Source: Deltaproteobacteria bacterium ADurb.Bin151
GTDB lineage: Bacteria; Desulfobacterota; Syntrophia; Syntrophales; Smithellaceae
Length of the DNA: 64,000 bases
Direction of reading: 5' to 3'
Assembly (NCBI GenBank): GCA_002070455.1
Contig: MWDG01000004.1
Span: 1 to 64,000, forward strand
Under the pieces are notes generated by a model, which saw only the letters and a list, made by a program, of their open reading frames with translations, had not been told where the DNA came from and searched no databases. Shown here piece after piece: positions 38,757-59,683 of the stretch. Made by a program: the position numbers and the translations under genes. Positions within the stretch are counted from its first letter, which is position 1. The number at the start of each line of letters is the position of its first letter.

Positions 38757-38784
38757 AAATTCACACAAGGAGCTTGATTCAATC

Positions 38785-39519: not shown

Positions 39520-39521
39520 AA

Positions 39522-40816: not shown

Positions 40817-40830
40817 AAAGGATTCCGCCC

Positions 40831-42443: not shown

Positions 42444-42710
42444 ATGACACGTCAGGATATAGAAAATGAAGTCCGTGACATTTTTTTAAGAGAGTTTGAA
42501 GTCGAAAATCCCGAACTCGATGTCAACTTACGTGAAGCCTATGGCTTTGACAGTATTGACGCAATTGACCTGCTTCTGGAAATCGAGAAGTTCCTGGGGT
42601 CTGAACTGACACGGGACGAGAAAAAGCAGGCGATGGACATCCGCACGATGCGACAGATCATTGATTACGTCGAAATGCTGGCGGAAAAGCGCCGCACCAC
42701 GAAGGGGTAG
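42444..42710 (+). CDS. Acyl carrier protein
   Basis: 88 residues, acidic. The phosphopantetheine site is Ser37 in YGFDSIDAIDLLLEIE, the DSI form used by APE and other type II carrier proteins rather than the DSL of housekeeping AcpP. It would carry the growing aryl-polyene chain. AAAGGAG lies upstream. Only one ACP is visible, whereas E. coli- and Vibrio-type APE clusters have two (ApeE, ApeF). Five bases separate it from the ketosynthase gene. Confidence 0.92.
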   Translation: MTRQDIENEVRDIFLREFEVENPELDVNLREAYGFDSIDAIDLLLEIEKFLGSELTRDEKKQAMDIRTMRQIIDYVEMLAEKRRTTKG

Positions 42711-42715
42711 GGCAA

Positions 42716-43957
42716 ATGACAGATCGCAGAGTCGTTATCACAGCCTGTTCGGCAATAACACCCATCGGTCACGGAAGGGATAAAATCATCGCAAGTCTTC
42801 AGAAGGGGATTTCCGGCGTTCAACCTCTGCGCGAAGATGAACTGTTCGGCCAGTTCATTCATTCGAGGGTTTACGGCACAGTAAGTGAGACGATTGCGTA
42901 TGACTTCAAACGGCAGCACCGCAAGACCATGGGACCGGTGTCTTATTATGCCTGCCAGGTGGCCAGGGAAGTGCTGGAGCAGGCGGGGCTTTCTACCGAG
43001 TTTATAACGGGAGGGCGACTGGGCATTGCGTTTGGCTCAATTCATGGTTCGCCCACGGTTCAGCGCGATATTTACAAAATATTTCTGAGCGCAAAAGATA
43101 AAGAGACGTATCAGAAAATCGGTGCGGTGGATTACCTGAAATCCATGGTGCATACAACTGCCGTGAATATTTCAAAAATGTTCGGCATTACCGGACGTAT
43201 TATTTCTTCGGGGACGGCCTGCACCACGTCGAGCCAGTCCATCGGTTTTGGCTACGAAGCGGTCAAGTACGGACTGCAGGATGCCATGCTCTGCGGCGGG
43301 GCTGATGAATATGACACGATCACGGTTGCCGTTTTTGATAATCTCCTGGCCTGTTCCACCGCTTTCAACGATCAGCCAGAAAAAACGCCCCGTCCGTTTG
43401 ACAGGGCGCGCGACGGTCTGGTGGTCGCCGAAGGCGCGGGCGCCGTTATGCTGGAAGAGTATGAATTTGCCAAAAAACGCGGTGCGCCGATTCTGGGTGA
43501 GGTGATTGGTTTCGCCTGCAACTCCAACGGAGGAGACCTGATTCTTCCTAATCTTGAAGGTATTACCAAAACACTGCAACTGGGTCTTGAAAACGCTAAA
43601 ATTTCCGCCGCGGACGTTGACCTGATCAGCGCTCACGCCACCGCGACGAAGATGGGGGACATCATTGAGGCACAGGCAGCCGCTGCGGTCTTTGGCTCCA
43701 ATCCTCATGTGGTGGCCCTCAAGAGTTACATGGGACACACGATGGCCGCCTGCGGAGTCATTGAAACGATTTTAACGCTTTACATGATGCAGGAAAATTT
43801 TATCGCCCCGACGCTCAATCTCGAAGATATTGACGAACGATGCGCGATGGTCAGGCACGTTCAGACACTCATGGAACATCCGGTCAAGACCGCGGCCATT
43901 CAGAATTTTGCGTTCGGCGGCGTCAACACGAGCCTGCTGATTCGAAAGTTGACCTGA
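42716..43957 (+). CDS. Beta-ketoacyl-ACP synthase, ApeR/FabF-like, active
   Basis: 413 residues. Full C-H-H triad: Cys169 in GTACTTSSQ, His307 in SAHATATKMGD, Lys336 and His341 in LKSYMGHTMAACG. Condenses malonyl-ACP with the acyl or aroyl chain. It pairs with the ACP directly upstream and is not beside the chain-length-factor-like gene, so it is the better candidate for the stand-alone (ApeR-like) ketosynthase that primes or supplements elongation. Six bases to the acyltransferase gene. Confidence 0.92.
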   Translation: MTDRRVVITACSAITPIGHGRDKIIASLQKGISGVQPLREDELFGQFIHSRVYGTVSETIAYDFKRQHRKTMGPVSYYACQVAREVLEQAGLSTEFITGGRLGIAFGSIHGSPTVQRDIYKIFLSAKDKETYQKIGAVDYLKSMVHTTAVNISKMFGITGRIISSGTACTTSSQSIGFGYEAVKYGLQDAMLCGGADEYDTITVAVFDNLLACSTAFNDQPEKTPRPFDRARDGLVVAEGAGAVMLEEYEFAKKRGAPILGEVIGFACNSNGGDLILPNLEGITKTLQLGLENAKISAADVDLISAHATATKMGDIIEAQAAAAVFGSNPHVVALKSYMGHTMAACGVIETILTLYMMQENFIAPTLNLEDIDERCAMVRHVQTLMEHPVKTAAIQNFAFGGVNTSLLIRKLT

Positions 43958-43963
43958 AATCAA

Positions 43964-44761
43964 ATGGCTTTTATTCGATTTTTTCAGTTGATCGGCAATT
44001 TTTGCCTCATGTTGATTTTATGGGGCTATTTTCTTTTCGGCTTTTTGTTCATATTGCTTTTCCTGTTTATTCCCTGTTATCTGTTTACAAAAAACAGTTC
44101 AGGGGTCATCCAGAAATTGTTCCACCTGCATATGAAGCGCTTTTTCAAACTGGCAGGCCTGCTCATTCCCCGCACAACATATAAAATCGACCCGGAAGTG
44201 TGTGCACTTAAGTCGTCTGTGATTGTATGCAATCACCTGTCCTACCTGGACCCGATCCTGCTGGTATCCCTGTTTCCGCGTCAGACGACGATTATTAAAA
44301 AGACGTTTTTCCAGGTGCCGGTTTTCGGATGGTTCATGAAGAAAGCGGGTTATGTGTCTTCCTCGCCGTCTGAAATGACAGGTGCGGCCATGATCAATCA
44401 TCTCGAGAGCATCAAAGCGCATCTGGCTGCAGGCGGCAATTTATTTTTATTCCCGGAGGGAACCCGGAGCCGTGACGGCAAGCTCGGACCCTTTAATAAA
44501 GGGGTGTTCAGTATCGCGAGGTACTGCAATACGGGATTAAAGCTGGTTTATATTCAGGGCACCGAAAAACTGTTCCCGCCCGGATCGTTTCTTTTTAAGA
44601 CCCAGGAAAAGAACACCATTACGATGGAATTAATCGCCACACTGACGCCAGATTATTCGGCAAAAAATTTTTCAATGAACGCAGTGGCCGAACAGACCCG
44701 TCAGATTTTTGAACGGAAAATCGCTGATGGAAAAGCTGCCGGTTCGGACATAAAAATATAA
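43964..44761 (+). CDS. PlsC-like 1-acylglycerophosphate acyltransferase
   Basis: 265 residues. Hydrophobic N-terminal membrane segment (about 8-40). Acyltransferase motifs NHLSYLDP (His91 and Asp96 of HX4D) and FPEGTRS (163-169). Transfers an acyl chain onto a lysophospholipid or similar acceptor at the inner membrane. Cluster-borne copies in APE loci probably attach the polyene to its lipid or glycolipid anchor. Read together with the fatty acid kinase fusion at 53899, it hints at acyl transfer chemistry dedicated to this product. Confidence 0.88.
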   Translation: MAFIRFFQLIGNFCLMLILWGYFLFGFLFILLFLFIPCYLFTKNSSGVIQKLFHLHMKRFFKLAGLLIPRTTYKIDPEVCALKSSVIVCNHLSYLDPILLVSLFPRQTTIIKKTFFQVPVFGWFMKKAGYVSSSPSEMTGAAMINHLESIKAHLAAGGNLFLFPEGTRSRDGKLGPFNKGVFSIARYCNTGLKLVYIQGTEKLFPPGSFLFKTQEKNTITMELIATLTPDYSAKNFSMNAVAEQTRQIFERKIADGKAAGSDIKI

Positions 44762-44789
44762 CATGAAATCAAATGGAGGAGGACGAGTT

Positions 44790-45347
44790 ATGGAATTACA
44801 GGAAGCCATACAAAAAAGACGCAGCGTTCGAAAATTTACGGATTCCTTTGTAACCGATGAAGAATTGAAAAAAATCTTTGAAGCCGTGCGCTGCTCCCCG
44901 TCCTGGGCCAACACGCAGGCATGGGAATTCGTTGTGGTGCGCGACCGCGAGGTGATTCAGCAAGTTGTGGCGACTTATTCCGAGAAAAATCCTGCAACCA
45001 AATGCTCACTTGTTGCTTCCGCTTTGATTGTTGTCTGTGGAAAAACCGGCGTCTCCGGATGTTACGGGGGAGTGGAAGTCACCAAACATGCCAACTGGTA
45101 TATGTTTGATCTGGGCATCGCCACGCAGACACTCTGTCTTACCGCTCATGAAATGGGACTGGGGACGGTCGTCGTCGGCCTGATGGACCATGATGCCTGC
45201 AAAAAAGTGATTAGCCTGCCCCAGGGGTATGAAGTGGCTGCCGTGATCCCTATCGGGCGACCGGCGGTGGAGCCGAAGGATGGGCCTCCACGCAGGCCGG
45301 TGTCCGAGATGGTGCATCTTGACATGTTTGGCAGGAAAATGTTTTAG
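44790..45347 (+). CDS. Nitroreductase-family flavoprotein
   Basis: 185 residues from an ATG with GGAGGAGG upstream; a start at 44763 lacks a ribosome site. FMN-binding pattern: QKRRSVRKFTD (start), CSPSWANTQAWEFVVV, GIATQTLCLTAHEMGLGT and IPIGRPA. FMN-dependent NAD(P)H oxidoreductase, some relatives of which reduce enones or act on aromatic rings. It is not a regular APE component. It may reduce an unsaturated or aromatic intermediate, or simply be a passenger. Ends before a 126-bp gap containing an inverted repeat and promoter. Confidence 0.85.
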   Translation: MELQEAIQKRRSVRKFTDSFVTDEELKKIFEAVRCSPSWANTQAWEFVVVRDREVIQQVVATYSEKNPATKCSLVASALIVVCGKTGVSGCYGGVEVTKHANWYMFDLGIATQTLCLTAHEMGLGTVVVGLMDHDACKKVISLPQGYEVAAVIPIGRPAVEPKDGPPRRPVSEMVHLDMFGRKMF

Positions 45348-45369
45348 AGAATTGCCCGTTTACAGATGG

Positions 45370-45448
45370 TGCCCTTACCTGCTTATTTTAATATTCGTTT
45401 GACTTTTTAGTCTACGCATTTTAGATTTCTCATTTATTGGTAAGGGCA
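45370..45448. repeat. 79-bp segment with 10-bp inverted ends around a promoter
   Basis: TGCCCTTACC (45370-45379) and GGTAAGGGCA (45439-45448) are perfect inverted repeats. Between them a promoter-like pair TTGACT (45399-45404), 17-bp spacer, TAGATT (45422-45427) points toward the ketosynthase gene. Either a small mobile remnant or a hairpin/operator for the second half of the cluster. Confidence 0.6.
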
Positions 45449-45473
45449 TTGAACACAACAGGCTAAAATTACT

Positions 45474-46727
45474 ATGAAAAATAAAAAGCGCATTGTGATC
45501 ACAGGCTTAGGGACGATAAACGCCATTGGCAAAGATGTCGCGCAGTTTGCGGTTTCTTTACGGGAGGGTGTTTGCGGCATAAACGATATTGATCTTTTCG
45601 ATACAACCGAATTCCGCACGCATAAAGGCGGACAGATCAGGAATTTTAATGCCCGCGCCTCCATTCCGGACGAATTTTCCCTCAAAAGAATGTCCCGCGC
45701 CGATCAGCTGGTCTTTGCCGCGACGATTGAAGCTCTCACCGATGCCGGTCTTTATCCGTTGCCGGAACGGTTCAAAGAAGATATGGGGGTCATTATCGGC
45801 GGAGGTTCCGGCGGGTTGTTCGAAGCGGAAAACTTTTATGCGGATCTGCTTGTGAAAGGTCTCGACAGGTCGAGATTTTCCCGTCTGTCGACCGTTTATT
45901 GCGCGTCTTCTGCTGACCGGATTGCTTCCAACCTTGGACTTTTGGGACCTAAAACCACATTGATGACTGCCTGTTCATCCGGCGCCAATGCGCTGGGTTA
46001 TGCGAGGGATCTGATTGAGAGCGGCCAGGCGGGAATTGTTCTGGCGGGGGCTGTGGAACCGATGTGCCGGATTACCTATGCGGCTTTCAACGCCCTGAAG
46101 TCTTTGGATGAGGATGTCTGCCGGCCCTTTGACAGGACCCGCTCCGGTCTTTCGCTGGGAGAAGCGGCGGCCATTCTGGTTCTGGAATCGCTGGAATCAG
46201 CGTTGACTCGGGGGGCAACCATTTACGGCGAAATTCTGGGATACGGAGTGAGCTGTGATTCATTTCACATGACCGCGCCCGATGAAAAAGCATCCGGTGC
46301 TGTTCGTTCCATGCAGGCGGCCCTGAAAGACAGCGGATTGTCCACGCAGGACATTGATTACATCAATGCTCACGGAACCGCGACGCCCGCCAACGATGTG
46401 ACAGAAACCAGGGCCATTAAGGAAGTATTCGGACCGCGCGCCTATGCTATTCCGGTGAGTTCAACAAAATCCATGCATGCCCATCCGCTGGATGCGGCGG
46501 GCGCGCTGGAAGCGATAGTTGCTTTACTTGCGCTGTCGCAGGGCTTTATTCCGCCGACGATCCATTTTAAGGAACGCGATCCTGAGTGTGATCTGGACTA
46601 CGTGACGGAAGGTGCGCGTTCATCTGACTTACGCCATGTTTTGTCCAATTCCTTTGCGTTTGGCGGGAACAACACCACAGTGATTTTCGGGAAATACGAA
46701 GGGCAGGGTGCGGCTCATGGATCATGA
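45474..46727 (+). CDS. Beta-ketoacyl-ACP synthase, ApeO-like, active
   Basis: 417 residues. Cys167 in MTACSSGANA, His300 in NAHGTATPAND, Lys332 and His337 in TKSMHAHPLDAAG (the usual TGH is HAH). All catalytic residues are kept. Its stop codon overlaps the following chain-length-factor-like gene by 11 bases, the arrangement of KS-CLF heterodimers such as ApeO-ApeC, so it is the likely chain-extending subunit. The start has no strong ribosome site. Confidence 0.92.
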   Translation: MKNKKRIVITGLGTINAIGKDVAQFAVSLREGVCGINDIDLFDTTEFRTHKGGQIRNFNARASIPDEFSLKRMSRADQLVFAATIEALTDAGLYPLPERFKEDMGVIIGGGSGGLFEAENFYADLLVKGLDRSRFSRLSTVYCASSADRIASNLGLLGPKTTLMTACSSGANALGYARDLIESGQAGIVLAGAVEPMCRITYAAFNALKSLDEDVCRPFDRTRSGLSLGEAAAILVLESLESALTRGATIYGEILGYGVSCDSFHMTAPDEKASGAVRSMQAALKDSGLSTQDIDYINAHGTATPANDVTETRAIKEVFGPRAYAIPVSSTKSMHAHPLDAAGALEAIVALLALSQGFIPPTIHFKERDPECDLDYVTEGARSSDLRHVLSNSFAFGGNNTTVIFGKYEGQGAAHGS

Positions 46728-47970
46728 ACATGACCGATCGGACAGTCAGCGCATTGTCGTGACGGGTTTGGGGCTTGTTTCGCCGCTGGGTGCAGGGAAA
46801 GACGAATTTTCCCGGAGGCTTTCTGAAGGCGCCTGTGCCATTGACACCGTGCAATCGCTAGATACCAGCGCTGTGTCTTCGCATCTCGGGGCGGAAGTCC
46901 GTGATTTTTCCCCGCGTGATTTTATTTCTGTAAAAAATCTACGGAGGATGGACAGGACGTCATTGATGACAGCCGCGTCAGCAAGAATGGCGCTCGACGA
47001 CGCGGGCGTGACCGTCAGTGCTGAAAACCGGGATCGCATCGGCATCCTTCTGGGTACGTCGTTTGGAGCGACGGACGTTACGGTTCAGGTTGCTGATACG
47101 CTCTTGAAGGAAGGGCCGTCTTCGGTCAACCCGATCCTCGTTCCCAATACGGTGATGAACGCGCCGGCAGGTCACGCGTCCATTGAACTGGGATTTCGAG
47201 GCGTCAATATTACCGTTACGCATTTTGCCGTTTCCGCGGAAACAGCCATTGCGTATGCCGTTTCCGAAATCAAGCGCGGCACGGCGGATTTCATGCTCGC
47301 AGGCGGAGTGGATATTTTATCGAAATTTTATTATGAGTCTCTGTCGAAGTTTCATGGCCTGTCGCCGGACAAAGACGGGGCCGAAGGAGCGCGTCCTTTC
47401 GACGTCATGCGCAACGGTTACGTTGTCGGTGAAGGCTGCGGCATTCTTTGCCTGGAAAGCCTGTCTTGTGCCAGGAATCGTGGTGCGAGGATATACTGCG
47501 AAATCACCGGTGCCGGTATGGGGTCTTCACCCACGTCGCCCACTCAGTGGCCGAAAGATACCCAAGGGATCCGGCGGACGTTTCAGAGGACGTTGAATAG
47601 TGCGGGTCTTGCCCCTGAAGATATTACTGCGATAATGGCATCGGCCAACGGAGACAGGGTGCTGGATGCCGTAGAAGCGCGAGCTTATGACGAGTTGTTT
47701 GATGCATGTGGACAAAAACCGTTTGTGACCTCTGTCAAAGGTTCCCTCGGCGAGAGTTTTTCAAGCGGTGGTATTCGGGCTTGCGCCCTCGCTTTATCTG
47801 TGAAAAACAAATGGCTGCCCCCCACGGTCGGACTGTCCAATCCGCTTTTGCCGATGAATTTTGTAACGGGGCAGAAAAAGGAAATCGATGTAAAACATGC
47901 GGTTCTTGCCGGGATATCTTTCGGCGGAACTTATGTATATCTGGTTTTCAGTGATTACAAAAGTCAATGA
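46717..47970 (+). CDS. Chain-length-factor-like ketosynthase (ApeC-like), inactive
   Basis: 417 residues from the ATG at 46717; a GTG at 46708 is possible. Ketosynthase fold throughout, but all catalytic positions are lost: the Cys block reads VTHFAVSAETA (Cys to Ala171), the first His block reads ASANGDRVLDA (His to Asn), and the last reads VKGSLGESFSSGG (GH to GE), with only the Lys kept. That is what is expected for a chain length factor, which forms a heterodimer with the active ketosynthase and sets polyene length. Overlaps the active partner by 11 bases. Confidence 0.9.
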   Translation: MDHEHDRSDSQRIVVTGLGLVSPLGAGKDEFSRRLSEGACAIDTVQSLDTSAVSSHLGAEVRDFSPRDFISVKNLRRMDRTSLMTAASARMALDDAGVTVSAENRDRIGILLGTSFGATDVTVQVADTLLKEGPSSVNPILVPNTVMNAPAGHASIELGFRGVNITVTHFAVSAETAIAYAVSEIKRGTADFMLAGGVDILSKFYYESLSKFHGLSPDKDGAEGARPFDVMRNGYVVGEGCGILCLESLSCARNRGARIYCEITGAGMGSSPTSPTQWPKDTQGIRRTFQRTLNSAGLAPEDITAIMASANGDRVLDAVEARAYDELFDACGQKPFVTSVKGSLGESFSSGGIRACALALSVKNKWLPPTVGLSNPLLPMNFVTGQKKEIDVKHAVLAGISFGGTYVYLVFSDYKSQ

Positions 47971-47979
47971 GGAAATATT

Positions 47980-49503
47980 GTGAATATCGGAGAATGGATC
48001 AGTAAACGGGCGATGATCGCGCCGGATAAACCGTTTCTGACGGAAAAAAACAAGTCCTATAATAATGAACATTTCAACAGGCGGGTCAATGAAACCGCAC
48101 GTGCCCTTGAAAATCTGGGAATCGAGAAAGGCATGCGTGTGGCTCTTTTGATGTCGAACTCCAGCGAGTTTCTGGAAATATTCTTCGCCTGTGCCAGGAC
48201 CGGTATGATCATGGTGCCGCTCAATTTCCGTCTGGCCGTTCCGGAACTGCTGTATATTCTACGCGACAGTGCACCTGAAATCTTAATCTACTCAAATGAA
48301 TTTGCGTCGAAAGTCGGCGAAATCAAGGCCGCCGGTATCCCCACGATGCGCTACTATCGCCTGGGAGAGGGCAACGACCCGTCTGATCCGGATTTTGCAG
48401 ATTATGTCGAAAATTTTGAAATCAGCGAACCGTTGAAAAGTCCGGGGGCTGATCTGTCCGATCCGCTGTTTATCATGTACACGTCCGGCACAACGGGTGA
48501 TCCCAAGGGAGCGGTCCTGACGCATCAAAATATTTTGTTCGGTGCGATTCATTCGCTTCTGGGATACGGGGTTGACCGGTCATACAAATCGCTGGTTGTC
48601 GCGCCGCTGTTTCATATCGGTGCGCTTGCGGCTTCCGTGACGCTGATTATTTACGCCGGCGGCAGCATCATGATCAGCAGTTTTTATAATGCCTCGGAAA
48701 TCCTCAAGACCATCTGCCGCGAAAAAATCAACTATATGTTTGCCGTTCCGGTTATGTACCAGATGATCGCGGATACGCCTGAATGGCATGACGCGGATCT
48801 GTCGCACGTGCATTTTTTCATTTCCGGCGGTGCGCCGATTCCCCTTCCGGTCATCCGGAAGTATCAGGACGAAAAGGGTGTGGGATTTGTGCAGGGCTAT
48901 GCCCTTACAGAGACCGGACGGCTGACCTCGCTGGACCTGGAAGACTCGGTGCGCAAGGCTGGCTCTGTGGGCAAGGAAGTGTTTCATGTGAATTTGCGCA
49001 TTGTGGACGATCAGGGCCGCGATATTCATACGGCAGACCCGGGAGAAATTCTTGTTCAGGGACCGAATGTGTTTTCCCGCTACTGGAACAATGAGACGGC
49101 GACAAAAGCCGCTTTCAGGGACGGCTGGTTTTGCACCGGCGACATGGGGAGACGCGACGAGGAAGGTTTTGTTTATATTGTGGGGCGAAAAGTGGAGATG
49201 ATCATTTCGTCCGGCGAAAATATCTATCCCGTAGAGGTGGAGCGCGCGCTGCAGACGCTACCCGGCGTAAAAGAAGCCGCTGTAGTGGGAATTCCCGATC
49301 CAAAAAGAGGAGAGGTTGTCGGCGCGTTTATTATCCCGAACCGGGAAGTGCAAATGTCCGAAGCGGACATCATCAATGCGCTTTCGGGGAAAATTGCCAA
49401 CTTCAAAGTTCCGAGGAGAGTCTTTCTGGTTGATGAATTTCCGCGCAATCAGAGCGGGAAGGTTTTAAAAAGAATTTTAAAAAAGCGCGTGGAAGGAAAA
49501 TAA
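47980..49503 (+). CDS. AMP-forming acid-CoA ligase within the cluster
   Basis: 507 residues from a GTG start with TGAGGA eight bases upstream. P-loop IMYTSGTTGDPKG, GYALTETG, TGDMGRRDEEGFVYIVGRKVEMIISSGENIYP, catalytic lysine in NQSGKVLKR. Full-length class I ligase forming acyl-CoA. Set between the chain length factor and an acyl-CoA dehydrogenase, it could activate the aryl acid made by the ammonia-lyase or a fatty acid. The dehydrogenase start codon follows the stop codon directly, so they should act together. Substrate unknown. Confidence 0.88.
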   Translation: MNIGEWISKRAMIAPDKPFLTEKNKSYNNEHFNRRVNETARALENLGIEKGMRVALLMSNSSEFLEIFFACARTGMIMVPLNFRLAVPELLYILRDSAPEILIYSNEFASKVGEIKAAGIPTMRYYRLGEGNDPSDPDFADYVENFEISEPLKSPGADLSDPLFIMYTSGTTGDPKGAVLTHQNILFGAIHSLLGYGVDRSYKSLVVAPLFHIGALAASVTLIIYAGGSIMISSFYNASEILKTICREKINYMFAVPVMYQMIADTPEWHDADLSHVHFFISGGAPIPLPVIRKYQDEKGVGFVQGYALTETGRLTSLDLEDSVRKAGSVGKEVFHVNLRIVDDQGRDIHTADPGEILVQGPNVFSRYWNNETATKAAFRDGWFCTGDMGRRDEEGFVYIVGRKVEMIISSGENIYPVEVERALQTLPGVKEAAVVGIPDPKRGEVVGAFIIPNREVQMSEADIINALSGKIANFKVPRRVFLVDEFPRNQSGKVLKRILKKRVEGK

Positions 49504-50658
49504 ATGGATTTTATTCCCTATACCCAGGAGCATCGGATTTTTCGGGAGTCTTTCCGAAAATTTCTGGATAAAGAGATTGTCCCCCATGTGGAACAGTGGG
49601 AAGAAGACGGAATTGTGCCGCGCTGGGCCTGGAAGAAAATGGGGGATAACGGTTTTTTGAGCACGTCCGTGCCTGCCGAATACGGTGGACAGGGTGCCGA
49701 TTTTCTCTACAGCGCCATTTTGATTGAAGAGATGGCCAGGGCCAATTTTTACGGGCTTTCCGCACGTTTGCACGGTGATGTGGCGGTGCCCTATCTGATG
49801 CAGCTGGCGACCGAGGAACAGAAGAAAAAATATCTGCCGGGCTGTATCAGCGGGGATATCCTCATGGCGATTGCTATGAGCGAGCCGGCAGCCGGCAGCG
49901 ATCTGGCGGGCATGAAAACCACAGCGCTGGAGGATGGCGATTCATTTATTCTCAATGGACAGAAAACATTCATTTCCAACGGCATCAATTGCGACCTGGT
50001 GATTGTGGCGGCGAAAGATCCCCGGGAAAGCAATTCGCACGCAGCCGTGGATTTATTTCTGGTCGAAGCGGGAACCCCCGGCTTTGAAAAGGGAAAGAAG
50101 CTCAAAAAAATCGGCTGGCGATCGCAAGACACGGCGGAGCTTTTTTTTGCTGATTGCCGGATTCCGAAAGAAAACCGTCTGGGGCCAAAAGGTACCGGAT
50201 TTAAAAACCTGATGATCAACCTGCAACAGGAACGACTGATTTGCACCATCGGAGCGCAGACGGCCGCGGAATTCATGCTGGAGGAAACGATCCTGTACTG
50301 CAAACAGCGTGAGGTCTTTGGGAAAAAGCTTAGCCAGTTGCAGAATACGCAGTTTGTTCTGGCGGAAATGGCGGCGGAAGTTACGGTCGGCCGCACATTT
50401 GTGGATAAAATGATTCTGGAACACTGGAAGAAAAATTCCGTGACTGTTGAAGTATCCATGGCGAAGTTATGGATTACGGAAATGGCCTGGAGAGTGGCCG
50501 ACCGGTGTCTGCAGCTTTTTGGCGGCTATGGCTATTGTGAAGAGTATCCGATTGCGCGCGCTTGGAGGGACATCCGCGTAACACGCATCCTGGCCGGCTC
50601 CAATGAAATCATGAAGCAGATTATCGCGAGAGCCGTCATAAATAAAAGGGAGATGTAA
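49504..50658 (+). CDS. Acyl-CoA dehydrogenase (LCAD/IVD-type base)
   Basis: 384 residues. Blocks AMSEPAAGSDLAGMKTT, GLGPKGTGFKN, REVFGKKLSQLQNTQ and LFGGYGYCEEYPIARAWRD. The MCAD Glu376 position is Ala364 (RILAGSNE), whereas Glu243 (QQERL) occupies the Thr255 position, as in long-chain and isovaleryl-CoA dehydrogenases. It starts at the base after the ligase stop codon. An acyl-CoA dehydrogenase in an aryl-polyene locus is unexpected. It may desaturate the CoA thioester made by the neighbouring ligase, for example turning an arylpropanoyl-CoA into a cinnamoyl-CoA starter (inference). Confidence 0.88.
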   Translation: MDFIPYTQEHRIFRESFRKFLDKEIVPHVEQWEEDGIVPRWAWKKMGDNGFLSTSVPAEYGGQGADFLYSAILIEEMARANFYGLSARLHGDVAVPYLMQLATEEQKKKYLPGCISGDILMAIAMSEPAAGSDLAGMKTTALEDGDSFILNGQKTFISNGINCDLVIVAAKDPRESNSHAAVDLFLVEAGTPGFEKGKKLKKIGWRSQDTAELFFADCRIPKENRLGPKGTGFKNLMINLQQERLICTIGAQTAAEFMLEETILYCKQREVFGKKLSQLQNTQFVLAEMAAEVTVGRTFVDKMILEHWKKNSVTVEVSMAKLWITEMAWRVADRCLQLFGGYGYCEEYPIARAWRDIRVTRILAGSNEIMKQIIARAVINKREM

Positions 50659-50666
50659 AAGACATT

Positions 50667-51896
50667 ATGAAATTTTTGTTGATTTATCCAAAATGGGAAA
50701 AACTGGACCGTCAGACACGTTTTATCCTTCCGCCTCACGGGCCGGTGGTGATGGCCGCAGCATTGCCCGCCGATGTGGAAGTGCAGTTCATTGATGAAAA
50801 TGTCGAACCGCTGGATGTGAACACGGACGCGGATTTTGTAGGCATTTCCACGATGCTGACCGCGCAGGTCAAACGCAGCTGGGAAATCGCAGACGCCTTC
50901 CGTGCCAGGGGAATCAAAGTTATCTGCGGCGGGATTGCCACGATGCTGCATGCCGAAGAATTTGAAAAGCACGCCGACTCGGTTTTTCTGGGAGAGGCAG
51001 AAGGCAGAATGGAGCAGGTCTTTGATGATTTCAGGGCGGGCGGGCTGCAAAAGATTTATAATTACATGCAGAATTTTCCACCCATTGAAAGTGTGGGGCC
51101 GGCGCGCCGCAGCATCCTGAACCGCGAGCTGTATAATTACCGCGGGGTTCAGATGGTGGATCTGTTTCACGCTTCACGTGGTTGCCGCTTCAATTGCTAT
51201 CCGTGTTGTGTGCGGTTTCTGGGCGGCCGCAGTTTCCGTCCGCGCCCCTTCGATAAGGTCGTTGAAGAACTGGCCGGCATTGACAACAACCGCCTGTTCA
51301 TTGTCGACAATTCACTGGCGCAGGACAGGGAATGGGAAATGGAGCTGTTTAAGGAAATGATTCCTCTGAAAAAGAAATGGTGCGCTCACCCGATCGAAGA
51401 TGATGATAAAGTGCTTGATCTTGCGGCGCAGGCGGGCGCCTGGTTTGTTTATCAGACTATTTTCGATTCCTCGGACTTTATTCGGGACCGGGTCAAACGC
51501 TATCATGATCACGGAATTGCCGTGGAGGGCAGCATTTTGCTGGGCCTGGATTATCACACGGAGGATTATATCAAACGCTGGATGGACTTTTTGCTGGAGA
51601 TTGAACTGGACATGGCGGAATTCACCATTTTGACGCCGTTTGTCCATACCCGTACTTTTGATGATTTGCATCATGAGGGCCGGATCTTCTCTTATGACTG
51701 GAGCAACTACACCTGCGGTAAAGTGGTTTTTCAACCGAAGCTGATGACGCCCGAAAAACTGCAGGAGATGTACTATTACTGCTGGGACAGGTTTTATGAA
51801 GAAGAACCCGCAAATTACAAGATGTTCAAAATGCTGAAAAAAGTAATGGATAAGGAAAAAGCGGATGGTACCTACAAGCCGCGCGTACGTAAGTAG
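50667..51896 (+). CDS. B12-binding-domain-type radical SAM protein
   Basis: 409 residues. The N-terminal ~130 residues have the Rossmann pattern of cobalamin-binding domains (MKFLLIYPKWE, DFVGISTMLTAQVKRSWEIA, KVICGGIATMLHAEEF, SVFLGEAE), though the DxHxxG cobalamin motif is not evident. The radical SAM core has the [4Fe-4S] ligands Cys173, Cys177, Cys180 (ASRGCRFNCYPC). Such enzymes methylate unactivated carbons or rearrange rings, and suit an oxygen-free pathway. Probable role: tailoring the aryl head or the chain. Between the acyl-CoA dehydrogenase (8 bp) and the ammonia-lyase (30 bp). Confidence 0.85.
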   Translation: MKFLLIYPKWEKLDRQTRFILPPHGPVVMAAALPADVEVQFIDENVEPLDVNTDADFVGISTMLTAQVKRSWEIADAFRARGIKVICGGIATMLHAEEFEKHADSVFLGEAEGRMEQVFDDFRAGGLQKIYNYMQNFPPIESVGPARRSILNRELYNYRGVQMVDLFHASRGCRFNCYPCCVRFLGGRSFRPRPFDKVVEELAGIDNNRLFIVDNSLAQDREWEMELFKEMIPLKKKWCAHPIEDDDKVLDLAAQAGAWFVYQTIFDSSDFIRDRVKRYHDHGIAVEGSILLGLDYHTEDYIKRWMDFLLEIELDMAEFTILTPFVHTRTFDDLHHEGRIFSYDWSNYTCGKVVFQPKLMTPEKLQEMYYYCWDRFYEEEPANYKMFKMLKKVMDKEKADGTYKPRVRK

Positions 51897-51926: not shown

Positions 51927-53483
51927 TTGATGAAGAAAAATGGCAGAAAGGCCGCCCTGGTGATCGATGGCAGCCATGTCAGTTTTGAAGATATGCTTGC
52001 CGTTGCGAAGGATGGAATGCCGGTAGTGATCAGCAGGTCAAAAGAGTTTGTCAGACGGATGGGCCGGACACAAAAAGCGCTAATGGATGGGATGCAGAAA
52101 GGTGTTGCGATATACGGTGTCAACACGGGATACGGCAAATCCTGCGGCAACCGGATCAGCATGAAGGTCGCCATGAAAAACGGTATCAATATTTTGCGGT
52201 TTCACGGTTGCGGTACAGGCGAACCGATTGGTATTGAAGAGACACGGGCTGCCATGTTAACAAGGATCATTTGCCTGGCGCGGGGTTACTCCGGCGTGTC
52301 GATTGATCTGCTCAAGCAAATGGCGGATTTCTTAAACGCAGGCATTACGCCCGTCGTGCCCTGTGAGGGTTCTGTCGGCGCTTCCGGTGATCTGACCCCG
52401 ATGTCCTATGTCGGGGCGACGCTTGCGGGAGAGCGCGAAGTATTTTATGAAGACGATATCGTTCCCGCCGCTAAAGCCATGAAGAAAGCGGGATTGAAAC
52501 CTTACAAATACCTGCCGAAGGAACCTCTTTCGATGGTCAACGGCACGACAACCATGACGGGCATCGCCGTGATTGCGGTTGAACGGGCCCGGAGAATCCT
52601 CGATGCCGCCATTGCCGCGACAGCGCTCAGTGTGCACGCGATGAAGGGCAACGCCCATCATTATCATCCGGTAATTTCGGAGGCCAAGCCGTTTCCGGGC
52701 CAGGTGCAGGTCGCAAATAAAATAGCCCGCCTCCTGCTGTCCAAAGTGTCTGCACGTCAACTGGAAGACGACGCGCTGGAAACCTTGCAGGACCCCTACT
52801 CACTGCGCTGTACGCCGCAAGTGCTGGGGGTGCTGTCTGACGCGCTTGCCTGGATTAAACAGTGGGTGGAAACAGAAGCCAACTCATCCAACGACAACCC
52901 GATATTTGATCCCGCCACCGGTCAGGTTCTGATGGGCGGCAATTTTTACGGGGGCCATATCGCCTTTGCCATGGACGGGCTGAAAGCTGCGCTGGCTTCC
53001 GCCGCCGACATGTGCGACCGCCAGGTCATGCTGCTGGTGACGCCCAATTTAAACCGCGGATTGCCGGGTGACCTGGTCCGTCTCAACGGCGGACAGGAGG
53101 GGTTTTATCACGGTTTCAAGGCCATGTCGATTGCAACGTCGGCCCTGGCTGCGGAAGCGCTTAAAGAAACGATGCCTGCCGCGTCCTTCTCTCGCTCAAC
53201 CGAATCACACAACCAGGACAAGGTCAGCATGGGAACCATAGCGGCCCGGGATGCCGAAAGAGTATGTACGCTCACGGAGCGGGTGGTTTCCATTCACCTG
53301 CTGGCGGCTGCGCAGGCCTGTGATATCCGTCAAAACATCCAGACAAGACCACTTTTGGCCGAACTGCTCCACAAGATCAGGCAGGTCAGCGATCCGGTGA
53401 TTGAGGACCGGCCACTGGACGAAGATATTGAAAGAATGTGCGTGGTGATCCGATACACTGATTTTTTTCAGGGAAAGTCATGA
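51927..53483 (+). CDS. Aromatic amino acid ammonia-lyase (HAL/TAL/PAL family)
   Basis: 518 residues, start with AAAGGAG upstream. The MIO cofactor tripeptide Ala-Ser-Gly is at 151-153 (GSVGASGDLTPMS). The active-site Tyr62 is in IYGVNTGYG. The substrate-selectivity pair is Phe91-His92 (LRFHGCG), unlike Ser-His of histidine, His-Leu of tyrosine or Phe-Leu of phenylalanine lyases. It releases ammonia from an aromatic amino acid to give a cinnamate-type acid. APE and xanthomonadin/flexirubin loci often include such a gene to supply the aryl starter. The mixed pair leaves the substrate open. Overlaps the thioesterase gene by ATGA. Confidence 0.92.
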   Translation: MMKKNGRKAALVIDGSHVSFEDMLAVAKDGMPVVISRSKEFVRRMGRTQKALMDGMQKGVAIYGVNTGYGKSCGNRISMKVAMKNGINILRFHGCGTGEPIGIEETRAAMLTRIICLARGYSGVSIDLLKQMADFLNAGITPVVPCEGSVGASGDLTPMSYVGATLAGEREVFYEDDIVPAAKAMKKAGLKPYKYLPKEPLSMVNGTTTMTGIAVIAVERARRILDAAIAATALSVHAMKGNAHHYHPVISEAKPFPGQVQVANKIARLLLSKVSARQLEDDALETLQDPYSLRCTPQVLGVLSDALAWIKQWVETEANSSNDNPIFDPATGQVLMGGNFYGGHIAFAMDGLKAALASAADMCDRQVMLLVTPNLNRGLPGDLVRLNGGQEGFYHGFKAMSIATSALAAEALKETMPAASFSRSTESHNQDKVSMGTIAARDAERVCTLTERVVSIHLLAAAQACDIRQNIQTRPLLAELLHKIRQVSDPVIEDRPLDEDIERMCVVIRYTDFFQGKS

Positions 53484-53896
53484 GCGCAGACAAAAAAAGT
53501 TTCGAAGTGAAAATCAGCGTGCCGTTTTTTGACCTCGATCCCATGCAGATCGTCTGGCACGGCAATTATCTCAACTATTTTGAAATCGCCCGCGCGGCGC
53601 TTTTCGAGCATTATGGCGTTGACCTTTACTCATACTATGACCGGGAAAAAATTATTTTTCCCATCATCCGGACCTCTACCAAACATATTTTCCCGCTCAG
53701 GCACCGCGATGAAATTATCTGCAAGGCGACCCTTGCGGATGCCAATATCAAGCTGGTTGTGGATTTTGAAATCCGCAAGACAGCCGACAACAGTGTTTGC
53801 GCGCGGGGACGCACAGAACAGGTAGCTGTAAAAACCCCCGAAATGGAGACCCTGTTTTCCATTCCGCAGGACATCCGTGAACTTTTGGGATATTAA
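53480..53896 (+). CDS. 4-hydroxybenzoyl-CoA-type thioesterase (ApeK-like)
   Basis: 138 residues, single hotdog domain. Signature VPFFDLDPMQIVWHGNYLNY (14-33) with catalytic Asp18 and the helix start, as in YbgC/4HBT thioesterases. It hydrolyses an acyl- or aroyl-thioester. In APE clusters a small thioesterase (ApeK) unloads or edits the chain on the ACP. Four-base overlap with the ammonia-lyase and two bases to the kinase fusion indicate tight co-translation. Confidence 0.88.
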   Translation: MSADKKSFEVKISVPFFDLDPMQIVWHGNYLNYFEIARAALFEHYGVDLYSYYDREKIIFPIIRTSTKHIFPLRHRDEIICKATLADANIKLVVDFEIRKTADNSVCARGRTEQVAVKTPEMETLFSIPQDIRELLGY

Positions 53897-53898: not shown

Positions 53899-55608
53899 AT
53901 GGATGATCTTCTGAAAAAATCTTTTGTTGCCGGTGTCGAGCGGGTGGCGGCCTGGGCGGATCTGCTCGATGAGATCAATGTATACCCCATCGCCGACGGC
54001 GATACGGGGCGAAACCTGTTTGTCAGCCTTTCACCGCTTCGTTTTGCAGGTGAGCCCAAAGAGAAGCTTGCCCGTAGGCTTCTGATGACTGCGCGCGGGA
54101 ACTCCGGCAATATCGCCTCACAGTTTTTTTCGGCTTTTTATGATGTCGATTCTCCGAAGAATCTGAAGGCGGCCGTGCAGGAGGGGAACGCCCGGGCATG
54201 GAAAGCCGTCAGCGATCCCAGACTGGGGACGATGCTTTCCTTTTTTGATGCTCTCGAAGAAAATCTCAGTCAGCAGGATTTTACCCCGGATCAAAAGAGG
54301 GTGGATCAAATTGTGTCCTGCCTCGAGCAGGCTGTGATTGAAACACAGGACCTGCTGCCCAAACTGGCCGAGGCGGGAGTTGTCGACGCCGGGGCGCTGG
54401 GCATGTACATTTTTTTTGAGGGATTTTTCTGCACGTGGTCGGGATTTGCCGGTCCCTATCGACCGGTGACGGAGGTGTTCAAAGACCGCCTGCGGATTTC
54501 CCCGGAATTTCAGGAATCGGTAATCAACGGCTACTGCATTGACTTTGTGGTGAAAGCCGATGGTTCTCCCGATGATCTGGCCAAAATTACCGGCGGACAG
54601 GAAAGCGTTGTCATGATTCAGGAAGGTGATCTTTGTAAAATTCATTTGCACACCGAAGACAGGGAAAAGATGAAGACCCGGATCGGCGCGCTCGGAGCCG
54701 TTATCAACTGGGAGGACGACAATCTCTCCGAGCAGATCCGTGAATTCAGAAATGCCCCCGCTGATTCCGCGCTGCACATCATGACGGATGCCGCCGGTTC
54801 ACTTACCCGCGAAGACGCGAGAAAATACGGCTTCACCCTTTTGAACAGTTACCTGAATGTCGGCGACAAATCGCTGCCCGAAACCTGTTTTTCCCCGGCA
54901 GAACTCTACGCTGCCATGGAATCAGGAATCAAGGTATCCACATCTCAAGCCTCTGTTTTTGAACGGCATCAATCCTACGCCAGCGCTGTGGCCCGTTTTG
55001 AAAAAGTATTGTATTTGTGTGTCGGTTCCGCGTTTACGGGCAATTACGACGTGGCAAGCCAATGGAAAAAGGAGCATGATCCGGACAACCGCCTGATGGT
55101 TGTCGATACAGGTGCGGCGTGCGGCAGGCTGGGCGTGATTGTTCTGTCGACGCAGCTCTATTTCAGACACACCGGAGATGTGGAAAATACTTTTACCTTC
55201 GCCAAGGAGGCTGCCGCAGCATCCGAAGAATATCTTTTCCTGGAGAAGCTTCAGTACCTGGCCGCCGGTGGCAGGCTTTCCAAAACCGGTGCGTTCGTAG
55301 GCGATGTTTTGAAAAAGAAACCCGTCATTTCACCACAGTCGGAAGGCGCGAAAAAAGTAGGTTTTGTCAGAAATCAAAACGAACAGATTGATTTTGCGCT
55401 GGAGAAGATGGCGGCCTCATTGGGTAGGGATTCCCGCGCGCTGATCATGCTGGAATATTCGGATAATGTCGGTCAGGTGACACAGTTTATGGAAAAGATT
55501 CAAAATCTCTATCCGATGGCGGCTATTGCTCTTCAGCCTCTGTCGCTGACATCCGGCGCGCACATGGGACCGGGGACATGGGGCGTGGCGTTTTTGAAAA
55601 CAGGTTAA
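53899..55608 (+). CDS. Single-chain fatty acid kinase: DhaL + FakA-middle + DegV/FakB
   Basis: 569 residues. Residues 1-190 form a DhaL kinase domain with NVYPIADGDTGRN (DGDTG 33-37) and GNSG (67-70) for ATP-Mg. Residues 195-285 match the FakA middle domain, with HLH in KIHLHT (247-252). Residues 292-569 form a DegV/FakB domain: TDAAGSL, STSQAS (347-352), GSAFTGNY (376-383), YLAAGGRLSKTGAFVGD. In Staphylococcus FakA phosphorylates a fatty acid held by a separate FakB; here donor and acyl-binding modules share one chain. Expected product: acyl-phosphate. Its place between thioesterase and glycosyltransferase suggests it re-activates the acid released by the thioesterase. Confidence 0.85.
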   Translation: MDDLLKKSFVAGVERVAAWADLLDEINVYPIADGDTGRNLFVSLSPLRFAGEPKEKLARRLLMTARGNSGNIASQFFSAFYDVDSPKNLKAAVQEGNARAWKAVSDPRLGTMLSFFDALEENLSQQDFTPDQKRVDQIVSCLEQAVIETQDLLPKLAEAGVVDAGALGMYIFFEGFFCTWSGFAGPYRPVTEVFKDRLRISPEFQESVINGYCIDFVVKADGSPDDLAKITGGQESVVMIQEGDLCKIHLHTEDREKMKTRIGALGAVINWEDDNLSEQIREFRNAPADSALHIMTDAAGSLTREDARKYGFTLLNSYLNVGDKSLPETCFSPAELYAAMESGIKVSTSQASVFERHQSYASAVARFEKVLYLCVGSAFTGNYDVASQWKKEHDPDNRLMVVDTGAACGRLGVIVLSTQLYFRHTGDVENTFTFAKEAAAASEEYLFLEKLQYLAAGGRLSKTGAFVGDVLKKKPVISPQSEGAKKVGFVRNQNEQIDFALEKMAASLGRDSRALIMLEYSDNVGQVTQFMEKIQNLYPMAAIALQPLSLTSGAHMGPGTWGVAFLKTG

Positions 55609-55610
55609 AC

Positions 55611-56369
55611 ATGAACAGGAAAGCCGGCAAGACTATTAAGAACACGAAGAACTCTAAAAACAGCAGGAACCGCTTTGCTGTTGTCATCCCGGTGTATAAT
55701 CATGCAGCAACGGTGGTGCAGGTTGTCAGACAGGTTCAGAATCTGGGGTATCCCGTATTTGTCGTGGATGACGGATCAACCGATGAAACTCCCCAGCGTC
55801 TTGCGGAAATGAAAGGCATTACGGTTTTGCATCATTCGATAAATGAAGGCAAAGGCGCAGCGATTTTGACCGGTTTCATGGCGGCTTCTCATGTGGCCGA
55901 TTTTGCGATTACCCTGGATGCGGATGGTCAGCATTATCCTGAAGATGTTCTGAAATTAATCAGCGCGATTCCAGCCAAAAAACGTCCGATTGTAATTGGA
56001 ACACGCGAAGGCATGACCACACTGCAGGAAAATCATGCGCCCTGGACAAGCCGTTTCGGCCGGAAGTTCTCGAACTTCTGGGTCAGGATGTCCGGTGGCC
56101 CAAAACTTTCCGATTCGCAAAGCGGCATGAGAATTTATCCGCTGCCGGAATCCATGAGCCTCGGCGTGCGTGCGCGGCGATTTCAGTTCGAAGTGGAAAT
56201 CCTTGTTTTGGCGCACAAAAGGGGCATCCCGATTATCGAAGAGCCGGTCCGCGTGTTTTACGGCCCGGATGGATCAAGAGTTTCCCATTTCCGGCCTTTT
56301 GTTGATTTTTTACGAAATTCAAAAACCTTTACCCGTCTGATTTTTTCCCGGATATTCTTCCGGCACTGA
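55611..56369 (+). CDS. Family 2 glycosyltransferase
   Basis: 252 residues, starting two bases after the kinase-fusion stop. The first 20 residues are basic and Asn/Lys-rich. GT-A fold with VVIPVYNHA, DDGSTD (53-58) and DADGQ (103-107) for the nucleotide-sugar and metal, then LSDSQSGMRIYP and the C-terminal EVEILVLAHKRGIPI of the dolichyl-phosphate-mannose-synthase-like group. Transfers a sugar at the inner membrane. APE products are reported to be part of larger glycan/lipid conjugates, so this could glycosylate the anchor. A MITE-like repeat follows before the exporter gene. Confidence 0.9.
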   Translation: MNRKAGKTIKNTKNSKNSRNRFAVVIPVYNHAATVVQVVRQVQNLGYPVFVVDDGSTDETPQRLAEMKGITVLHHSINEGKGAAILTGFMAASHVADFAITLDADGQHYPEDVLKLISAIPAKKRPIVIGTREGMTTLQENHAPWTSRFGRKFSNFWVRMSGGPKLSDSQSGMRIYPLPESMSLGVRARRFQFEVEILVLAHKRGIPIIEEPVRVFYGPDGSRVSHFRPFVDFLRNSKTFTRLIFSRIFFRH

Positions 56370-56445
56370 TTACACGGCAGATGCGTCAAAAGCACGGGAG
56401 CCCCTCTGGAGGGTTTATACTTGCCAGTGTTCTGGAAATATGTTT

Positions 56446-56568
56446 ATACCAAGTCGCATCCTTTAGCTAACTTTGTTGGCATCGTTGTCGGCTTCCTCGA
56501 CGTATCAATAATACGCCTGCGGAGCCTCCTCCTTGCCGTCGCGTTATCCTTTGAATGCAACTTGGTAT
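56446..56568. repeat. MITE-like repeat family 2, copy 2 (short form)
   Basis: 123 bp with ends ATACCAAGTCGCATCC and GAATGCAACTTGGTAT (inverted, three mismatches over 16). Shares four blocks with 14188-14428 in the same orientation. It sits in the 248-bp gap between the glycosyltransferase and the exporter and interrupts an otherwise tight cluster. No coding capacity. Confidence 0.8.
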
Positions 56569-56617
56569 TAACAATCAACAAAGAATACAATAATCACTCG
56601 ATATTCTAAGGGTATTC

Positions 56618-59600
56618 ATGCCGCTGCAAAAATACTCCATCAAATGGTCAATCATCATCATTACGGCTCTGGCTGTAGGACTGCTTTTTTTCTGGGAAAC
56701 CAATCATTTAAAAATTGAAACCGATATCCTGGAATCCATGCCTCATCATGATCCGGTGCTGAACTCTGCCCGGCAAGTGATCCATCATCTGCCGATTCAG
56801 GACAAGATCTTTATTGATCTGGAGCAGGCATCTGATAATCGGGATGAACTGGTCAAAGCGGCATCTGTTGTTACGGATAAGTTGAACAAGAGTGGTTTAT
56901 TTACCAGGGTCGGCATCAGTGATGCGGTAAATAATTTTCCGGAGCTGCTTGGGCATGTCAATAGCAATTTGCCGTGGCTTTTGAGTGCGTCTGATCTGGA
57001 ACAGAAGATTCAGCCGCTGCTGGAACCGGGGCAGATCAGGAAGGCTATGACGCACAACCGGCAGAGCCTCGAACAGCTCGAAGGGATAGGCCGCAGTGAA
57101 ATGATGGCTTCGGACCCGCTGGGATTCGCAGGCGTTATTCTGGGACAAATGTCAGCACTGCTACCGGCCGGCGGGGCGCAGTTTTATTCCGGGCAGCTGC
57201 TTTCCGGAGACGGCAGACATGCACTGATTGTTGCCCGCATAGCCGGGTCGGGCACAGACACATCAAAAGCCGCCCGGATTGATCGTCTTCTTGAGGAATG
57301 CCGTGAGGAACTCAACTCAGAGACCAAAGCAAAAGGTTCATTCACCCTGACATCTGTGGGAGCTTATCGCGCGGCGCTCGATAACGAAACCGCGGCCAAG
57401 CGCGACACCAGGCTGGCGATCTTTCTGACAACCCTGGGGATCGCCCTCTTGCTTATTTTTGCCTTCCCCCGTCCCCTTATTGGACTTTTGGCGCTGCTGC
57501 CTTCCGCTGTAGGAGCGATTGCCGCGTTATTTGTCTGCTCTTTCCTGTTTGAATCCATGTCCATGCTGGCTGTTGGTTTTGGCGGCGCGATCATGGCTTT
57601 CACCGTTGATCTGGGTATCACGTACCTGCTGTTTCTGGATCAACCATACGCCACTTACGGAAAACAGGTGGCACGTGAAGTCCGCTCGGCGGAATTGACG
57701 GCAATTTCAACAACCATTGGCGCTTTCCTGCTGCTCCTGATCAGCGACTTCAAAATCCTTGCCGAAATTGGTGTCTTTGCGGCGCTTGGCGTTGCGTTTG
57801 CGTTTGCTTTTGTGCATTTTGTCTTTCCGAAAATCTTTCCTTCCATGCCGCCTGCGGCGCGAACCACCAATCCTTTTCTCCTTGATGCAATAGTGAGAAT
57901 ATCCTCTCCGGCAAAGTGGAAGGCGATTGCCGCCGCCCTCTTTGGTTTGACGATGCTTTTTTTTGCCAAGCCGGTTTTTAATGTGGATCTGCAGGCCATG
58001 AATTCGGTAAGCAAAGATACGATCCGGGCCGAACAGAAGCTCCAGGGGATCTGGGGGGATCTTTCGGGCAGATGCTATGTTTTATTGCAGGCTCCGGATC
58101 TTGAAGCATTGCAGGAGAAAAATGATCGGTTAATGACATTGCTGGCCGCCGATGTAAGAGAAGAGAAACTTGCCCCGGTATTTTCTCCTTCCGTTTTGTT
58201 TCCTTCTGAAAAACCGGCTCAAAAAAATTATGAGGCCTGGCGCGGCTTCTGGAGTCAGGAACGCCTGGCCCGGTTGGAGCTCAACCTGAATGCAGCGGCG
58301 CGGGAAAATGGTTTTACCGCGGATGCTTTTGATCCTTTCTGGAAAATGATTCACCAAAACATGCCACGAACGTTTGAGATCCCTCAAAAGTATTTTGAAA
58401 TGCTTGGTATTTCCGCAACGCCTGAAGGCTATACACAGTTGACGCTGCTTGGTGCAGGGAAAAATTACCGTGCGGAAAATTTATTTGGCACAATTTCATC
58501 AGCGGGCATTGCTAAATTGTTTGACGCTGATTTATTCAATAAAAAAATGGGGGAATTTTTAAAAAGTCTGTTTGTCGAAATTGCCCTGATCGTCAGCCTT
58601 GGTTTAGTTGTGGTGATATCTCTTTTCTTTTTAGACTGGCGTTTATCATTGACAGCGATCGCTCCTGTCGTGTTTGCTCTTCTGGCCACCCTGGGCACAC
58701 TGAAAATCATCGGCCATCCGCTGGATATTCCCGGAATCATGCTCTGGATTGTCATTATGGGGATGGGGATTGATTACTGCATTTATTATATCCGTACTTA
58801 TCAGCGCTGTTTTGACGACAAGCATCCGGCCATGCGGACCATCAGACTGGCAATCTTTCTGTCGGCTTCCACGACATTGATCGGTTTTGGCGTCCTGATG
58901 TTTGCCAGTCATGAGCTTTTAAAGAGCATCGGAATCGTTTCTTTTCTGGGTATTGGCTATTCATTGATCGGGACCCTTTTAATTATACCTTTTCTCCTGG
59001 AGAAAATATTTGCTCCGGTTCCAGATCCTGCAGGCAAGTTTGTCATTGGGTCGAAAGAGCATATTCGGCGAACGCTCTTGCGCTACCGGCATCTACCCGG
59101 TTATCCGCGGGTTTTTGCCCGTTGCAAGATGATGGCAGATCCGATGTTTAAGGAATTGGATCAATATGTGAAAAATCCCCGCCGGATCATCGATATCGGT
59201 TGCGGATTCGGTATTCCGGCTGCCTGGCTGCTGGAAATTTATCCCGGCGCGAAGGTATTTGGCCTGGAACCGGACGAAGAAAGGGTGCTGATTGCCAACC
59301 GTGCGATCGGTCAGCGCGGGTTTGTGCAGGCGGGTTTGGCGCCAGACCTGCCTTCCGTGGACGGCAGCGTCGATTATGTTACCATGCTGGATATGCTTCA
59401 TTACATTAATGATGAAGAATTGCGTTTAGTGCTGGGGCGGATTAACAAGAAACTGGAAACGGGTGGAACGCTCGTTATTCGAGCGACGGTTCCGTCGGAC
59501 CGGAAATTTCCCTGGAAGCGCTGGATTGAAATGATCCGCTTAAAACTCACCAACACAAAATACTTCTTCCGTCAGGAAAAGGAAATTGCCGGGCTTATGT

Positions 59601-59683
59601 TGGATGAAGGATTTACCGTTGATGTTCAGGCTTCCACTGCCATAGACGTAGAAGAGAAATGGTTTGTGGGGAAAAAATCATGA
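56618..59683 (+). CDS. MMPL/RND exporter fused to SAM-dependent methyltransferase
   Basis: 1021 residues in one uninterrupted frame. Residues 1-820 form an RND-superfamily MMPL exporter: one N-terminal helix, a periplasmic porter loop, five helices near 270-410 (LAIFLTTLGIALLLIFAF, GGAIMAFTVDLGITYLL), a second loop, then five more helices near 650-800 (GIMLWIVIMGMGIDYCIYYI, with the Asp of the proton relay). Residues 850-1021 form a class I methyltransferase with motif I DIGCGFG (859-865), GLEPD, and LDMLHYI. Separate MMPL and methyltransferase genes are the rule in APE clusters; here they are joined. It probably methylates and exports the product toward the LolA-like carrier. Confidence 0.88.
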   Translation: MPLQKYSIKWSIIIITALAVGLLFFWETNHLKIETDILESMPHHDPVLNSARQVIHHLPIQDKIFIDLEQASDNRDELVKAASVVTDKLNKSGLFTRVGISDAVNNFPELLGHVNSNLPWLLSASDLEQKIQPLLEPGQIRKAMTHNRQSLEQLEGIGRSEMMASDPLGFAGVILGQMSALLPAGGAQFYSGQLLSGDGRHALIVARIAGSGTDTSKAARIDRLLEECREELNSETKAKGSFTLTSVGAYRAALDNETAAKRDTRLAIFLTTLGIALLLIFAFPRPLIGLLALLPSAVGAIAALFVCSFLFESMSMLAVGFGGAIMAFTVDLGITYLLFLDQPYATYGKQVAREVRSAELTAISTTIGAFLLLLISDFKILAEIGVFAALGVAFAFAFVHFVFPKIFPSMPPAARTTNPFLLDAIVRISSPAKWKAIAAALFGLTMLFFAKPVFNVDLQAMNSVSKDTIRAEQKLQGIWGDLSGRCYVLLQAPDLEALQEKNDRLMTLLAADVREEKLAPVFSPSVLFPSEKPAQKNYEAWRGFWSQERLARLELNLNAAARENGFTADAFDPFWKMIHQNMPRTFEIPQKYFEMLGISATPEGYTQLTLLGAGKNYRAENLFGTISSAGIAKLFDADLFNKKMGEFLKSLFVEIALIVSLGLVVVISLFFLDWRLSLTAIAPVVFALLATLGTLKIIGHPLDIPGIMLWIVIMGMGIDYCIYYIRTYQRCFDDKHPAMRTIRLAIFLSASTTLIGFGVLMFASHELLKSIGIVSFLGIGYSLIGTLLIIPFLLEKIFAPVPDPAGKFVIGSKEHIRRTLLRYRHLPGYPRVFARCKMMADPMFKELDQYVKNPRRIIDIGCGFGIPAAWLLEIYPGAKVFGLEPDEERVLIANRAIGQRGFVQAGLAPDLPSVDGSVDYVTMLDMLHYINDEELRLVLGRINKKLETGGTLVIRATVPSDRKFPWKRWIEMIRLKLTNTKYFFRQEKEIAGLMLDEGFTVDVQASTAIDVEEKWFVGKKS

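Follow-up and report, generated by a model that had tools for sequence, protein, structure and literature searches.

The 64,000-nucleotide stretch of DNA analysed here (the window) carries a gene in which an RND/MMPL exporter is fused to a class I SAM methyltransferase (MT). This fusion is genuine, is old, and is found commonly in the phylum of the window. The gene is a single open frame on the forward strand (56618-59683, +) with an ATG start and no internal stop, and its 1021-aa product, an architecture that is kept in relatives, consists of the exporter (residues 1-797), a loop (798-812) and the MT (813-1021). An earlier note on this DNA had read it as one 1021-codon frame joining an RND/MMPL transporter to a class I MT, with the motif DIGCGFG at 859-865; translation, Pfam and AlphaFold2 bear out the joined frame, and the motif lies where it was said to lie.

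The fusion protein and its occurrence

The AlphaFold2 model of the whole protein, made with an alignment of 30 relatives, has a pLDDT of 84.6 and shows 12 long helices in the RND arrangement, followed by a loop of ~15 aa and then by a Rossmann-type MT that runs to the end of the chain. The transmembrane (TM) helices of the exporter part (56618-59008, +) fall in this model at residues 10-30, 249-282, 286-310, 316-340, 348-375 and 379-406 (first set) and 433-449, 637-671, 674-698, 704-730, 737-762 and 766-797 (second set); they form two repeats with a large loop after the first helix of each, which is the topology of a 12-TM RND/MMPL protein. Pfam likewise recognizes an RND/MMPL domain in the exporter (MMPL, PF03176; 34.4 bits against a cut-off of 20.5) and places the best of two stretches at 187-404. 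In an alignment of 30 fused proteins D331 in TM4 is invariant and D719/Y720 in TM10 are nearly so (at least 90%), and we take these positions, with their charged residues in TM4 and TM10, to be those of the RND proton relay. From the established topology of the RND family, the C-terminus of the exporter is presumably cytosolic. The nearest solved RND lipid transporters are HpnN and MmpL3/4/5, HpnN by sequence and both by fold (HpnN is the best Foldseek match, E = 2.8e-21); unlike the window fusion, they are without a methyltransferase domain. That the exporter is itself HpnN was ruled out by its score of 79.4 bits against the NCBIfam equivalog, which requires 751.9 bits. For the fusion protein as a whole, NCBIfam gives no match above cut-off, only weaker ones to HpnN, HAE3 and a number of MT families, and the protein therefore falls outside all curated families.

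The MT domain with its N-terminal helices (59054-59680, +) combines motif I (DxGxGxG; D859, G861, G863 and G865) with a Rossmann fold, as class I SAM MTs do. Four overlapping Pfam models (Methyltransf_23, 11, 25 and 12) lie at 851-1001 with 39-48 bits, each above its cut-off, and the isolated domain was modelled by AlphaFold2 with a pLDDT of 91.5. The residues that do not vary in the aligned homologues are the four of motif I, P885, D925, H928, R955, R985 and W1015, together with F833, K837, D841, P842 and F844 in the helices ahead of motif I. Because the SAM motif and further polar residues are unchanged across 31 MTs, down to ~34% MT identity, the MT looks active, and its catalysis is probably under selection. 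Structure searches with the domain returned generic matches only and did not narrow the substrate, and no tested substrate was found for any enzyme of the fused MT family.

Could the fusion be an artefact of assembly, or of a frameshift that joined adjacent genes? The source genome is a draft assembly in 285 contigs, with Smithella/Smithellaceae MAGs as its nearest named relatives, and its draft state would allow such an error, but the same frame is present in dozens of independent genomes, including on one contig of >1 Mb. Of 59 relatives, 39 have the fusion protein, spanning 13 of 28 genera; it is in 80 of the 155 genomes of the class when matches cut by contig ends are included (full-length copies down to 43% identity), and an evenly drawn sample of 395 genomes from the phylum has full-length copies at 38-44% identity well outside the class. 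The 68 distinct fused proteins that were fetched, nearly all from other genomes and with full-length identities down to 37%, span residues <40 to >1000 in one frame, and the junction (795-857 in the window protein) is 59-65 residues long in every one of them. The same junction across independent genomes excludes an assembly error at about 59050-59150, which the earlier note had named as a finding that would refute it, and we regard an artefact as vanishingly improbable.

A profile of the MT matched in 74 of the 155 genomes of the class, where every match is either joined to MMPL sequence or truncated at the end of a contig, and in 31 of the 395 genomes of the phylum sample. Among the latter, 23 lie outside the class: 18 have intact fusions, two (G192 and G283) have interrupted fusions, one (G340) has a triple fusion, one (G200) has exporter and MT split and one (G223) has a distant free MT only. 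A scan of genome contigs with the single fusion protein as query matched only Smithella/Smithellaceae, and a search of viral contigs found no fusion.

The surrounding gene cluster

By its gene content the region at 36.7-59.7 kb is an aryl-polyene (APE)/flexirubin-type cluster, in which the match of the dehydratase is weak. The genes are, with identities to the Ape proteins of E. coli CFT073 in brackets, an AMP-dependent ligase on the reverse strand (ApeH-like, 27%; 36758-38140) and then, all on the forward strand, a weakly ApeP-like dehydratase (20%, no Pfam match; 38160-38756), a ketoreductase (ApeQ-like, 45%; 38746-39519), a LolA-like carrier (ApeL-like, 32%; 39456-40151), a CrtI/CrtD-like FAD oxidoreductase (40741-42306), an acyl carrier protein (42444-42710) and three ketosynthase-type (KS) genes within 42716-47970 (42716-43957, 45474-46727 and 46708-47970; ApeO to KS, 31%), between which lie an acyltransferase (ApeD-like, 29%; 43964-44761) and a nitroreductase (44763-45347). 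These are followed by a second AMP-dependent ligase (47980-49503), an acyl-CoA dehydrogenase (49504-50658), a B12-binding radical SAM protein (50667-51896), an aromatic amino acid ammonia-lyase (51927-53483), a thioesterase (ApeK-like, 29%; 53480-53896), a 569-aa protein with DAK2, FakA-middle and DegV parts (53899-55608) and, directly upstream of the fusion, a family 2 glycosyltransferase (GT2; 34% to the N-terminal part of ApeJ; 55578-56369). The MMPL part of the fusion is 23% identical to ApeM. No other ammonia-lyase was found in the genome, and this one probably supplies the cinnamate/coumarate starter. The earlier note's picture of a cytosolic MT in an APE-type cluster is supported, and the MT is apparently active.

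In 38 of 78 loci GT2 is the gene immediately upstream of the fusion; a few genomes enter this count as two overlapping loci, and GT2 can be missed in short loci. Some fusions (e.g. L047, L050 and L097) have no recognisable cluster around them in the stretch that was read. The flexirubin cluster of Chitinophaga pinensis has, like that of the window, an ammonia-lyase start (there a tyrosine ammonia-lyase), type II KS, LolA, acyltransferase, glycosyltransferase and an exporter, the last of which is named there only 'predicted exporter' (PMC3992019). In E. coli a distantly related MMPL protein, ApeM, belongs to an equivalent cluster, where LolA-like, GT2 and acyltransferase genes are also found (PMC8253772), and there ApeM and ApeB, the predicted ring methyltransferase, are separate genes.

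Several further features of the cluster were observed. Histidine ammonia-lyase models outscore the FlxA/TAL models on the ammonia-lyase, and all of these scores are below cut-off; its substrate may be Phe or Tyr. The DAK2-DegV protein holds the kinase side (DAK2/FakA-middle) and the FakB side (DegV) in one chain and so resembles a one-chain fatty acid kinase. It is conserved in many related clusters, and a possible role is to turn the released polyene acid into an acyl-phosphate and so activate it. The B12-binding radical SAM protein is 61-84% identical in several related clusters, some of them with solo exporters, and could catalyse a second methylation or a ring-forming step in the pathway. 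In the gap that separates GT2 from the fusion, at 56442-56575, there is an element of 125-130 bp with roughly inverted ends (ATACCAAGT...ACTTGGTAT); the genome has ~10 full or partial copies of it, and it is probably a MITE-like repeat that has inserted into the operon.

Triple, split and solo forms

A protein search of plasmids returned two Bacteroidota records, from Aureispira and Persicobacter. The Aureispira protein (WP_264793640.1) is called in RefSeq a 'trifunctional MMPL family transporter/lysophospholipid acyltransferase/class I SAM-dependent methyltransferase'; that of Persicobacter (WP_338399298.1) has the same triple architecture and a RefSeq name of acyltransferase only, and its gene lies in a flexirubin-like cluster with the full ammonia-lyase/KS/LolA set. 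Their C-terminal MTs match the MT profile, N-terminal helices included, with E values of 2e-24 and 1e-23, respectively, in a search of 43 sequences. These proteins share with the window fusion the MMPL part in first place, a homologous C-terminal MT, and an adjoining CrtI-like oxidoreductase and AMP ligase. They differ in that an acyltransferase domain lies between exporter and MT, whereas Pfam finds no such domain in the short junction of the window protein, whose cluster has its acyltransferase as a separate gene (above), and their MMPL parts are only 23-24% identical to that of the window. The same MT family stands behind MMPL and lysophospholipid acyltransferase in one genome of the Desulfobacterota as well (G340; L112:4718-7399, contig G340:C179), where MMPL, acyltransferase and MT are in one frame whose 5' side is cut by the contig end. 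This triple fusion adjoins CrtI-like and KS genes.

Searches of PMC papers found no description of an MMPL-MT fusion and no paper on such pigments in Smithella. The earlier note had considered the fusion to be unknown from characterised APE loci, and this stands in so far as the arrangement is unlike that of E. coli, but its novelty is reduced by the trifunctional Bacteroidota relative that RefSeq already names. The note had also said that its view would be refuted if the architecture were widespread in ordinary APE clusters; since the bifunctional form is common in the phylum, this objection largely applies within the Desulfobacterota.

Two genomes have the MT family as a free protein behind GT2. 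In G200 the free MT (224 aa; L081:5514-6185) starts at the linker, is intact and lies directly behind GT2, and an exporter without MT is found 31 kb away on the same contig; in G163 the free MT (L085:5322-6052) is frameshifted and the fused copy is intact. In the exporter and MT trees, some basal supports of which are low, the G200 exporter groups with the G163 fusion among the fused exporters (supports 0.993 and 1.0). The free MTs of G200 and G163 lie inside the fused MT clade (0.964), but on another branch. Because both the exporter and the free MT of G200 nest within fused clades, the split is most likely secondary, and we reject it as the ancestral state. Suggestive, though in these two genomes only, is that each has retained a single MT of this family that apparently works. 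Finally, the MMPL-only relatives in APE-like loci (L087-L092 and L059-L061) have no MT of the fused family nearby, so such export does not in general require methylation.

Possible roles of the tethered methyltransferase

Both domains of the fusion are present and conserved, the exporter has a predicted 12-helix topology, the cluster has the content described above, and the MT is recurrently linked to exporter, acyltransferase or GT2, but what would an MT do at the end of an exporter? Its partners belong to the anchor and export end of the pathway and not to starter or chain synthesis, which favours late methylation, and methylation near export is plausible. From this we infer transport, methylation, substrate and order of steps as follows, and we give about even chances to the proposal of a bifunctional protein that exports an aryl-polyene/flexirubin-type lipid and whose MT methylates the lipid-linked product or its head just before export. 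The acyltransferase and the neighbouring glycosyltransferase would attach the released polyene to its anchor before methylation; the C-terminal MT (210 residues, cytosolic), being active, would then methylate the lipid-linked product or its sugar, phosphate or carboxylate head at the cytosolic face, just ahead of export; the 12-helix RND/MMPL transporter would use the proton gradient to carry the completed polyene-lipid out of the inner membrane; and the LolA-like and other carriers would then bring it to the outer membrane. Fusion would raise the local concentration of the enzyme at the exporter and fix a 1:1 ratio.

Alternatively, the fused MT might replace ApeB and methylate the aromatic head group, in which case it would be on the exporter only because enzymes of the pathway work near the membrane. 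The window's genome has no match to ApeB at E ≤ 1e-10, so ring methylation by the fused MT could still occur there; a single full-length ApeB orthologue (44%, G086) was found among the 155 class genomes, and the cluster has no conventional SAM MT other than the fused one. However, on comparison of the sequences the fused MT is of a different family and is not ApeB moved onto an exporter: orthology was rejected at 24% identity over 110 aa (E = 0.03), the MT profile does not match ApeB, and ApeB, a 352-aa protein of the O-methyltransferase type, has a dimerisation domain plus PF00891. In addition, the Persicobacter cluster has a 48% ApeB orthologue plus the fused MT, so the two are unlikely to share one job, and G086 also holds both. 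The recurrent acyltransferase, GT2 and exporter partners also argue against a replacement of ApeB, which we consider rather unlikely. The timing of methylation in E. coli aryl polyene synthesis is stated as not determined (PMC8253772).

The earlier note had suggested that methylation is a licence before transport, so that the MT domain would control access to the transporter and only methylated cargo would be exported. The near-fixed junction length in 68 proteins and the single clade formed by the fused exporters are consistent with such gating, but the linker includes the ~15-residue loop, exporter and MT are separate genes derived from fused ancestors in G200, and related exporters in APE-like loci are without such an MT. 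The split and solo cases thus do not support gating of transport by methylation, and the suggestion, weakened by them, now seems improbable. A non-catalytic MT domain, kept as a remnant or scaffold, is highly improbable, and no direct support was found for this reading: DxGxGxG, the acidic post-I region, D925/H928, R955, R985 and W1015 are conserved to ~34% MT identity, the free MT of G200 is intact where the exporter has lost its MT, and the fusion of G163 is intact where the free MT is frameshifted.

We therefore return to methylation of the lipid-linked product just before export as the preferred reading. In a wider and more tentative form, which we offer as a possibility with some doubt, the exporter-tethered MT family, attached directly or behind an acyltransferase, would mark a 'finish and export' module for polyene lipids that Desulfobacterota and Bacteroidota have in common, and would methylate the lipid anchor or the polyene end at the mouth of the transporter. 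The presence of a second MT family on the exporter suggests that in two phyla a methylation step is coupled to the export/anchor end of the pathway, and the fusion is a marker for finding such clusters in anaerobes.
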